DNA of 64,000 nucleotides from Bacteroidia bacterium (lineage in GTDB: Bacteria; Bacteroidota; Bacteroidia; B-17B0; Aurantibacillaceae). The notes beneath the pieces were generated by a model. It searched no databases. It had not been told where the DNA came from and saw nothing but the letters and a program-made list of their open reading frames with translations. The position numbers were made by a program, and so were the translations under genes. Positions 28,036 to 30,514 of the stretch are shown in pieces. The stretch lies in NCBI GenBank assembly GCA_018000995.1, contig JAGNIU010000016.1, forward strand, positions 1 to 64,000, in the 5' to 3' direction. Position 1 is the stretch's first letter, and every line of letters begins with the position of its first letter.

Positions 28036-29352
28036 TTATATCTCCGCTAAGCCCGAACTCATCATTTGACTTAATTCATCTTCATAAAAAAACTTTTCAT
28101 CAAATGCCGGCTGTAGATCGTCAATCCAAATGGCTTTTGGGTTGTATTTCGCGAAAAAAGGTTGTGCCACCCAATCGGGATTCCTGCCTTGCAACATTCG
28201 CAATACAAATACTTTTTGTTTATTGATTTCTGAAATGCCTAATACCTGAACTTTTCCTGCGAAACACGACATACTTGGTCCGCGGACAGTACGGCATATT
28301 CCACTTACTTTTTGATAAGCCTCTCTAAAAATTTTCCAAGCGTTTTCGAGTGTTACTGCAAAATACTCCTGCGCACCAGTATCACGTGGCATAAACATGT
28401 AATACGGTATACAATTTAAATTAACCTGTTTTCTCCACATCTCCGACCAAATTTCAGGGCTATCATTAATGTTTTTTAGAATTGGTGATTGAGTACGGAT
28501 TTGAACACCAACATTTCTTAATCGGCTAATAGCTAGTTTAACTGCATCGGTTTCCAGTTCCTTTGGGTGACTGAAATGCGCCATGATTGACAAATTAATT
28601 CCCGATTTTACGATTCGCTCAAACAAATTCAAATAATCATCCGCATCATCATCTGAAATAAATTTATATGGCCAATACCCTAAAGCCTTTGTTCCTATTC
28701 GTATAGTTTGAAGGTTTTCGAGACGGTTTTTCAAAAAGGGTTCAATGTACTGAGAAAACATTTTTTCTTTCATTATCATCGGGTCGCCACCCGTAAATAA
28801 TATATCCGTTACTTCTTTATGCTGTTTAACATATTCATATAACACATCTGCTTCTTTTGTCATAAACTTCATTCCATCCATTCCGGTAAATTGCGGCCAC
28901 CTGAAGCAAAAAGCACAATACGCATGACACGTTTGCCCTTGACTTGGAAAAAACAAAAGTGTCTCGCGGTATTTGTGTTGCATTCCATTTACTTTTTCTC
29001 CGTTTAACATTGGAACGTTATAATCCATTTGTCCGGCAGGATGCGGATTTAACTGCATTCTAATTTTATTTGCTGTAGCTTTAATAGTATCCCTATTAGT
29101 AGTACTAATTAAAGTATTCCACATAAGGCTGTAATGATTTTTGCTTAGCATATCCTTTTGAGGAAATGTTAATTTAAAAAACGGATCATCTACAGTGTTA
29201 TCCCAATCTATTAATTCGTTAACAACATAGTTATTTGTTTTGAATGGCAGAACGTTTCCAACAACTTCAATAGCTTCTATTTGTTCAGGTGTTAGTTTTT
29301 TAGTCTGAGGCAGACTTTTAAAGTTACTTATAGTGTAGGTGCTTAGCTTCAT
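28036..29352 (-). CDS. KamA-like (lysine 2,3-aminomutase family) radical SAM protein
   Basis: A 438-residue enzyme. I start it at 29352 (MKLSTYTISNFKSLP); 27 further codons are open upstream, but they run through an operator palindrome. The radical SAM cluster motif C142-x3-C146-x2-C149 (TCHAYCAFCFRW) is intact, as is FTGGDPM. The family match covers the whole barrel. However, the Gly-rich PLP-lysine loop of true lysine 2,3-aminomutases (PGGGGK) is replaced by SCFAGKVQV (Lys367 possible), and of the two Asp that bind substrate lysine only one has a counterpart (Asp324 in PRDTG). The substrate is therefore unlikely to be settled as lysine. A TTGAC-N4-GTCAA box lies 40 bases upstream. Such enzymes are oxygen-sensitive, which fits control by a Crp/Fnr-type regulator. 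Confidence 0.88.
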   Translation of the reverse strand: MKLSTYTISNFKSLPQTKKLTPEQIEAIEVVGNVLPFKTNNYVVNELIDWDNTVDDPFFKLTFPQKDMLSKNHYSLMWNTLISTTNRDTIKATANKIRMQLNPHPAGQMDYNVPMLNGEKVNGMQHKYRETLLFFPSQGQTCHAYCAFCFRWPQFTGMDGMKFMTKEADVLYEYVKQHKEVTDILFTGGDPMIMKEKMFSQYIEPFLKNRLENLQTIRIGTKALGYWPYKFISDDDADDYLNLFERIVKSGINLSIMAHFSHPKELETDAVKLAISRLRNVGVQIRTQSPILKNINDSPEIWSEMWRKQVNLNCIPYYMFMPRDTGAQEYFAVTLENAWKIFREAYQKVSGICRTVRGPSMSCFAGKVQVLGISEINKQKVFVLRMLQGRNPDWVAQPFFAKYNPKAIWIDDLQPAFDEKFFYEDELSQMMSSGLAEI

Positions 29353-29391
29353 TTTTTTTATGCAATTTAGTTTAAGAGTAAACAGTAAACA

Positions 29392-29405
29392 TTGACTGAT
29401 GTCAA
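29392..29405. promoter_or_regulatory. Crp/Fnr-type operator TTGAC-N4-GTCAA upstream of the KamA-like gene
   Basis: TTGACTGATGTCAA has perfect 5-bp arms around four bases, the geometry of FNR/FixK boxes (TTGA-N6-TCAA). Its centre is about 46 bases upstream of the KamA-like ATG at 29352. An identical pair of arms occurs at 29542. Confidence 0.7.
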
Positions 29406-29434
29406 CTACATTTATTTTATCATTAATTAACAAA

Positions 29435-29470
29435 TAAAAAAACCCGCTCCATTACAAGAATGAAGCGGGT
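29435..29470 (-). terminator. Intrinsic terminator of the candidate small RNA
   Basis: ACCCGCTTCATT (29470-29459, minus strand) pairs with AATGGAGCGGGT (29453-29442), a 12-bp stem with one G-U pair and a five-base loop, followed by a run of seven T. No protein gene lies upstream on this strand before the divergent Crp/Fnr gene. Confidence 0.8.
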
Positions 29471-29506
29471 AGTTTTAACCCATCTAATGAAAAAAAAGAT
29501 GTGCTA
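29435..29506 (-). ncRNA. Candidate small RNA divergent from the Crp/Fnr gene
   Basis: A predicted transcript of about 70 nt on the minus strand. It would start some 6 bases after a TACCTTTG -7 element (29519-29512) and end in an intrinsic terminator (29470-29435). There is no sensible reading frame in it. The 5' part can form a weak CATCT/AGATG hairpin. A GGGT upstream of the terminator can pair with the ACCC that opens the terminator stem, so an alternative fold exists. It stops about 80 bases before the KamA-like start and before that gene's own operator, so it looks like an independent unit more than a leader. No family assignment was possible by eye. Confidence 0.5.
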
Positions 29507-29511
29507 TGAAA

Positions 29512-29519
29512 CAAAGGTA
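29512..29519 (-). promoter_or_regulatory. TAnnTTTG (-7) promoter element of the candidate small RNA
   Basis: TACCTTTG on the minus strand is a perfect match to TAnnTTTG. The palindrome at 29542-29555 is centred about 42 bases upstream of the start implied by this element, the position used by class II Crp/Fnr activators. No -33 TTG is at the normal distance, as expected for an activator-dependent promoter. Confidence 0.5.
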
Positions 29520-29541: not shown

Positions 29542-29555
29542 TTGACAATTGTCAA
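29542..29555. promoter_or_regulatory. Crp/Fnr-type operator TTGAC-N4-GTCAA in the regulator's own promoter
   Basis: TTGACAATTGTCAA is a perfect 14-bp palindrome with the same arms as the box at 29392. It lies 36 bases upstream of the Crp/Fnr ATG at 29592 and also upstream of the divergent small-RNA promoter, so it may serve both. Confidence 0.7.
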
Positions 29556-29591
29556 CAGTTGCTTTTTTAATATGCACTAATATAGTATCCG

Positions 29592-30293
29592 ATGAGTTTA
29601 GACATAGATAAATATCACTTAAAGTCAAATTCCTTTTTCGAGTTTTTGTCAAATGAAGATATCTCATTTGTAAAAACGAACATGCGCAGACTAGAATTTA
29701 AAAAGAAACAACTTTTGTTTAGAGAAGATTCTTTTTCGAAGGGAGTTTACATTATAAAAAAAGGCAAGGTTAAGATATATAAAACCAATCCGGATGGCAG
29801 AGAAAGCATAGTTTACATTTACAAAAAAGGAGATTACTTTGGATATAGACCTTTATTGGCAAACGACCCGCACCCTGTTTCTGCCGGAGCAATTGACAAT
29901 GTGGTAGTATCCTTCATTCCGATTTGGGTATTTAATGAAGTGCTTGAGAAATCACCTCAGTTAGCACAGAAATTGCTGGTTAATCTTTCAAAAGAATTTT
30001 CTGTTTGGATAAATAAAATTACCGCTTTCGCTCACCATAGTGTGAAAGAAAGAGTTGCTCTTAGTCTGTTAATTTTAGCAAGAGTTTATGAAAGAGAAGA
30101 TTCGACTTCAAAATTAATAATCATTTCGTTAAACAGAAATGACTTTGCTGGATTTGTTGGTACAGCTAAAGAGACTTTGGTAAGAATGTTGCGGGTATTT
30201 AAAGATGCTAAAATAATTTCAGCCAGTGGCACTAAAATTATTATTTTGAAACCTAAAGCACTTGAGAAATTAATTGAAAAGTATGAGCCATGA
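29592..30293 (+). CDS. Crp/Fnr-family transcriptional regulator
   Basis: A 233-residue DNA-binding protein. Residues 15-125 form a cyclic-nucleotide-binding-type beta barrel (FSKGVYIIKKGKVKIY, KKGDYFGYRPLLAN). A long dimer helix follows, then a winged helix-turn-helix at about residues 178-215 (LNRNDFAGFVGTAKETLVRM). The recognition helix carries E194 and R198 in the E-x-x-x-R spacing that contacts the TGA core in FNR and CRP. The cAMP-binding Arg/Ser motif of CRP is not recognisable, and the protein contains no cysteine, so an FNR-type iron-sulfur sensor is excluded. The signal is unknown. A perfect TTGAC-N4-GTCAA box in its promoter suggests autoregulation. The KamA-like gene and the candidate small RNA are likely targets. 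Confidence 0.93.
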   Translation: MSLDIDKYHLKSNSFFEFLSNEDISFVKTNMRRLEFKKKQLLFREDSFSKGVYIIKKGKVKIYKTNPDGRESIVYIYKKGDYFGYRPLLANDPHPVSAGAIDNVVVSFIPIWVFNEVLEKSPQLAQKLLVNLSKEFSVWINKITAFAHHSVKERVALSLLILARVYEREDSTSKLIIISLNRNDFAGFVGTAKETLVRMLRVFKDAKIISASGTKIIILKPKALEKLIEKYEP

Positions 30294-30352: not shown

Positions 30353-30514
30353 ATGAACAGAGAGGAATTAATTGACTTTATAATTAAACACGACAAATCA
30401 GCGAGCCGAAAAAAACTTGAAAAGATAAGCTTAGAAGCCTTGTTTCTGATTTATATTCAGGTTGAAATTAAAATTGCGAATCGAAAAGAAACAAAAACGA
30501 ATCTTAAATATTAA
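30353..30514 (+). CDS. Possible small helical protein of 53 residues
   Basis: An open frame from ATG at 30353 to TAA at 30514, with two more in-frame stops right after. The predicted peptide is almost entirely helical and charged (MNREELIDFIIKHDKSASRK, then KKLEKISLEALFLIYIQVEI). It has no signal peptide. It begins 59 bases after the Crp/Fnr stop and is followed 20 bases later by a terminator hairpin, so it could be the last gene of that transcript. I do not recognise the family. The amphipathic pattern and the terminator placement are the only support. Confidence 0.45.
   Translation: MNREELIDFIIKHDKSASRKKLEKISLEALFLIYIQVEIKIANRKETKTNLKY

Follow-up and report, generated by a model that had tools for sequence, protein, structure and literature searches.

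In the OxyR/OxyS, GcvA/GcvB, and SgrR/SgrS pairs of Proteobacteria, a small RNA (sRNA) with an independent terminator is transcribed divergently from the gene of its activator. Few sRNAs have been characterized in Bacteroidota. FnrS of Escherichia coli is an sRNA activated by FNR (PMC8139620). Among Bacteroidota, GibS of Bacteroides thetaiotaomicron (145 nt) pairs around start codons via an unstructured 5′ seed, in a genus with no obvious Hfq or ProQ homolog (PMC7366714), and the main text of a study on Flavobacterium psychrophilum describes Rfp18 and other Rfp RNAs, which were found by RNA-seq and are in some cases conserved in the genus (PMC9723704). In the part of the literature that we covered, we found no Bacteroidota sRNA under a Crp/Fnr protein, nor such an arrangement.

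Here, we analyzed a window of 64,000 nucleotides from an uncultured Bacteroidia bacterium (contig JAGNIU010000016.1), in which the intergenic region between a Crp/Fnr-family regulator gene and a KamA-like gene (kamA) houses the layout of a minus-strand sRNA gene (Table 1). The palindrome, perfect −7 element, 12-bp terminator, and absence of a reading frame that a first-pass annotation had described were all present on the minus strand. The −7 consensus, TANNTTTG/TAHHTTTG, is that of Bacteroidota, and in F. johnsoniae the element runs from T-12 to G-5, with the start 4 or 5 nt beyond (PMC6847099). Applying this numbering (PMC6847099) placed the predicted sRNA +1 at 29507 and the palindrome center at −41.5, compared with the earlier estimate of near −42, and gave a predicted RNA of about 74 nt, compared with the proposed length of about 70 nt. 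The earlier reading had missed palindrome B, as well as the 22-nt spacing between palindrome A and the −7-like element of the regulator gene. We consider it highly likely that the locus is a stand-alone regulatory sRNA gene under the Crp/Fnr-family activator encoded next door.

Table 1. Features of the sRNA locus and its neighbors, in window coordinates.
Feature	Position	Strand	Sequence	Remarks
KamA-like radical SAM protein	28036..29352	−		Neighbor gene with its own site, outside the sRNA
Possible weak −7 element of KamA-like gene	29362..29369	−	TAAATTGC	TTACTTGC in several relatives
Palindrome B	29392..29405		TTGACATCAGTCAA on minus strand	Upstream of KamA-like gene; second pre-kamA site kept in relatives
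Predicted sRNA	29434..29507	−		About 74 nt; putative start from −7 spacing, putative end from terminator
Intrinsic terminator	29442..29470	−		12-bp stem-loop, then T-run at 29435-29441 (TTTTTTT)
5′ hairpin	29481..29501	−	CATCT...AGATG	Predicted fold; loop bears U8-CAU; not conserved in other copies
Possible seed	29487..29498	−	CTTTTTTTTCAT	Reverse complement of ATGAAAAAAAAG
sRNA −7 element	29519 to 29512	−	TACCTTTG	22-nt spacer from palindrome A
Palindrome A	29542..29555	none	TTGACAATTGTCAA	Perfect; predicted Crp/Fnr-type dimer site; same place in orthologs
Regulator −7-like element	29578..29585	+	TAATATAG	22 nt from palindrome A, opposite side
Crp/Fnr-family regulator	29592..30293	+		233 aa; cNMP-binding and HTH_Crp_2 domains

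In its wiring the sRNA gene works like FnrS or OxyS, but no tested feature places it in the FnrS family. As with FnrS, a small terminated RNA is predicted under a Crp/Fnr-family activator. Unlike FnrS, it matched no Rfam family (nothing reached the gathering level in Rfam 15, and matches at E values up to 10 fell far below the cut-off); Hfq (PF17209) was not found in the genome, which is 98.8% complete and in which control searches were positive; the regulator lacks Fe-S cysteines; and the RNA adjoins its regulator. With the OxyR/OxyS, GcvA/GcvB, and SgrR/SgrS pairs, the locus shares an sRNA divergent from the activator gene with its own terminator, whereas the regulator families and phylum differ, and here one symmetric palindrome stands at a class II position relative to each promoter. 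Like GibS, it is a predicted Bacteroidota sRNA whose 5′ part is mostly single-stranded in predicted folds; by description, GibS is set apart by its 145 nt and is not described beside a Crp/Fnr gene (PMC7366714). The Rfp RNAs are likewise Bacteroidota sRNAs and differ, as far as the main-text description goes, in that the main text names no Crp or Fnr control (PMC9723704); the predicted RNA may nevertheless have a homolog among them.

Within the family, 87 genomes, together with genome contigs, supplied the orthologous regulators (52-67% identical in the aligned set), and an order-level search gave the same 87. The palindrome, −7 element, and terminator occupied the same divergent slot in 14 of 23 distinct regulator loci from two families, with a full −7 match in 12 of these and one mismatch in 2, and the full layout was missing from 9 of the 23. 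Scanning offsets of 10 to 35 nt gave full −7 matches at two distances from the palindrome only, 22 nt (11 loci) and 21 nt (3 loci), in a count that takes in a few loci without the terminator; the palindrome center thus falls at −41.5 or −40.5, a class II position. One locus (L039) carried two tandem sRNA copies. A blind class-wide pattern search of 395 genomes, in which the regulator was ignored, returned 16 genomes. Five matches were sRNA copies already in the regulator-linked set, two of which (L169, the same as L089, and L170, the same as L081) belong to the second family, f21. One new match, L183 in G436, belongs to a third family (f38); there, an sRNA-like gene with two predicted hairpins (1501-1635) is flanked by a 53%-identical Crp/Fnr gene on one side and a Clc-like channel gene on the other. 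No ortholog other than that at L183 turned up when the family around G436 was searched. The proposal of an activator-dependent sRNA divergent from a Crp/Fnr regulator thereby gained support, with the layout kept in 15 genomes of three families, and the locus apparently represents a conserved family of sRNA genes, not described before, that lie divergent from a regulator and depend on an activator.

The layout was also rare by chance. TTGAC-N4-GTCAA occurred at 3 sites in the 3.6-Mb genome, 2 of them inside the sRNA intergenic region, and a palindrome followed after 20-23 nt by TANNTTTG was found twice, versus 0 for a reversed control pattern; the second such site precedes a YiaA/B-like gene, the domain of which was called on its L114 homolog. 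None of 6900 dinucleotide shuffles of upstream regions yielded even the promoter part, and a terminator followed 15 of 16 promoters compared with 39 of 1600 (2.4%) shuffled downstream sequences. Other promoters with the same geometry (about 63 after removal of overlaps) mostly had an ORF within about 15-25 nt, which suggests that the palindrome/−7 geometry is a working promoter type, since most of its other instances drive ORFs. A terminator-like sequence followed about 4 of these 63; two apparently lie inside coding sequence, and the remaining two, L068 (G076) and L119 (G061), are apparently further sRNA copies away from the regulator gene. The predicted promoter and terminator, the lack of an ORF, and the conserved linkage to the regulator are read directly from the DNA. 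Throughout the family, the same class II geometry also precedes genes for YiaA/B-like membrane proteins (L050 at G000:C18:49834, L058, L071, L118, L130, L132, L138, L152, L154, and L157), which are apparently a conserved target of the Crp/Fnr type.

Activation by the regulator, the RNA ends, and action in trans are what we infer for this gene. A regulator dimer would bind palindrome A, and linkage suggests that the dimer would be that of the regulator next door, not of a paralog. The bound dimer would activate a class II promoter, with its site at −41.5 and TACCTTTG as the −7 element, to give an RNA of roughly 74 nt ending at the intrinsic terminator, while in the opposite direction palindrome A would serve the regulator's own nearly leaderless promoter, and two RNA polymerases would compete for one site. 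On the regulator side, TAnnnYT was found 22 nt from the palindrome at 13 of 23 loci. Most loci have the regulator ATG starting 34 nt beyond the palindrome, at +1 by F. johnsoniae numbering, which predicts a leaderless regulator mRNA; the ATG of the window regulator sits at +3. Because the −7 spacing suits both sides, both genes have the one palindrome in class II position.

As a final step, the U-rich, single-stranded 5′ part of the sRNA, which often contains UUUUCAU, may pair in trans around mRNA start codons in the manner of GibS in Bacteroides, a step on which we are finely balanced and lean slightly toward doubt. UUUUCAU was present in 6 of 16 sRNA copies, compared with 0.94 on average among dinucleotide shuffles (0 of 1000 reached 6), an enrichment that overstates independence because the copies are related, and the motif hints at start-codon pairing. 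As a target pattern, AATGAAAAAAAA was found at 11 places in the genome, versus 5 for the reversed pattern, a contrast that tells us little; about three of the 11 lie at plausible gene starts, so that matches of the 12-nt seed to gene starts number only about three. When the 5′ part was paired with the start regions of the regulator or kamA, the result was no better than that of shuffles. The sRNA sequence outside the terminator was poorly kept (mean column identity, 46% overall), with too little conserved structure there for a covariance model, and blastn of the intergenic region against 60 relatives returned only short AT-rich matches and no homolog; an RNA that acts in trans on many targets would not usually diverge beyond blastn reach, which counts against the reading. 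The comparison of orthologous intergenic regions for compensatory changes, proposed as a check in the first-pass annotation, showed that the hairpin is kept: 6 of the 10 consensus pairs of the terminator stem have changed on both sides while preserving pairing. Stem pairing is required of every terminator, so these changes indicate a functional hairpin and not a specific RNA fold.

The strongest surviving rival to the sRNA reading holds that a symmetric palindrome unavoidably fires backward, that the terminator shields the neighboring gene, and that the RNA itself is inert. The rapid sequence change of the RNA body, the position of the terminator as the best-kept transcribed feature, and the lack of target evidence from the pairing tests are all consistent with such an insulator. 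However, most copies match TANNTTTG in full at the backward −7 element, which is better than the regulator's own −7 element, and transcription in the sRNA direction therefore appears to be selected for. The recurrence of UUUUCAU speaks against an inert RNA, tandem copies and copies distant from the regulator would be needless for insulation, and the next gene is convergent in one relative. On this evidence, we regard an insulator as unlikely, though well worth keeping in view.

The attenuation for which the earlier annotation left room is far less probable. Here, the transcript would be the 5′ untranslated region of kamA, and a GGGT/ACCC pairing would set termination versus read-through. The gene does lie downstream on the same strand in the window and in several relatives, and the GGGT/ACCC hairpin exists, as the second, weak one of two terminator-like sites in the locus (0.1 expected). 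As a real competitor to the terminator, however, the pairing did not hold up: at its best, the competing fold reaches −13.6 kcal/mol, 11 kcal/mol short of the −24.7 kcal/mol of the terminator, the partner of the pairing is not conserved in relatives, a separate palindrome precedes kamA beyond the terminator, and the gene downstream of the sRNA varies by genome (kamA, MscS, a GNAT/CN-hydrolase protein, Clc, or convergent panD). We reject attenuation on the grounds of a weak, unconserved competing fold and a changing downstream gene, and the last of these also indicates that the sRNA is not a kamA leader. A TTACTTGC-like element recurs 22 nt downstream of the second palindrome, with equivalents at L008, L009, L010, and L113. 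The sites before kamA suggest that it belongs to the same regulon. Finally, a leader peptide or small protein encoded by the transcript is scarcely credible, as only short chance frames speak for it, the longest ATG frame beginning within 130 nt has 9 codons in the window, and no frame is evident across copies.

For the sRNA gene and its regulator, the suggested analogy with FNR and oxygen found no support. The regulator protein contains no cysteines, and none are conserved among its orthologs; an FNR-type Fe-S oxygen sensor is therefore unlikely, and the gene neighborhood looks osmotic or ionic. Genes bearing similar sites or conserved as neighbors included trehalose synthase/phosphatase, trehalase, KamA-like, and GNAT/CN-hydrolase genes, as well as PanD, Clc, MscS, sulfate permease, and Na+/H+ exchanger genes, and this gene neighborhood suggests that the signal is osmotic or ion stress, not oxygen. 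In L113, L114, L116, and L117, sites cluster at genes for trehalose synthesis, PanD, GNAT/CN-hydrolase, MscS, Clc, and sulfate permease, together with a CHASE3 kinase with a response regulator; this cluster looks like an osmotic/ion-stress island run by the Crp/Fnr regulator. In the window, a 53-aa ORF with no family match lies between the regulator and a DUF7793 gene (30353-30514).

That the promoter and stop signal recur in this position in 15 or more related genomes, while the letters of the RNA between them have drifted, points to a real, undescribed regulatory RNA family. A more complete scenario, which we consider rather improbable as a whole, is that in this family a symmetric Crp/Fnr palindrome feeds two competing class II promoters, one for a leaderless regulator mRNA and one for the sRNA, and that a U-rich CAU tail covers AUG-AAA-rich starts in a phylum that lacks Shine-Dalgarno sequences, and in a genome where no Hfq was found, so that an osmotic/ion-stress regulon would become coupled to translation. 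The promoter-plus-terminator architecture can find sRNA genes that are too diverged for homology searches. If confirmed, the shared symmetric site would constitute a simple circuit, in which synthesis of the regulator and of its sRNA compete for one bound dimer.
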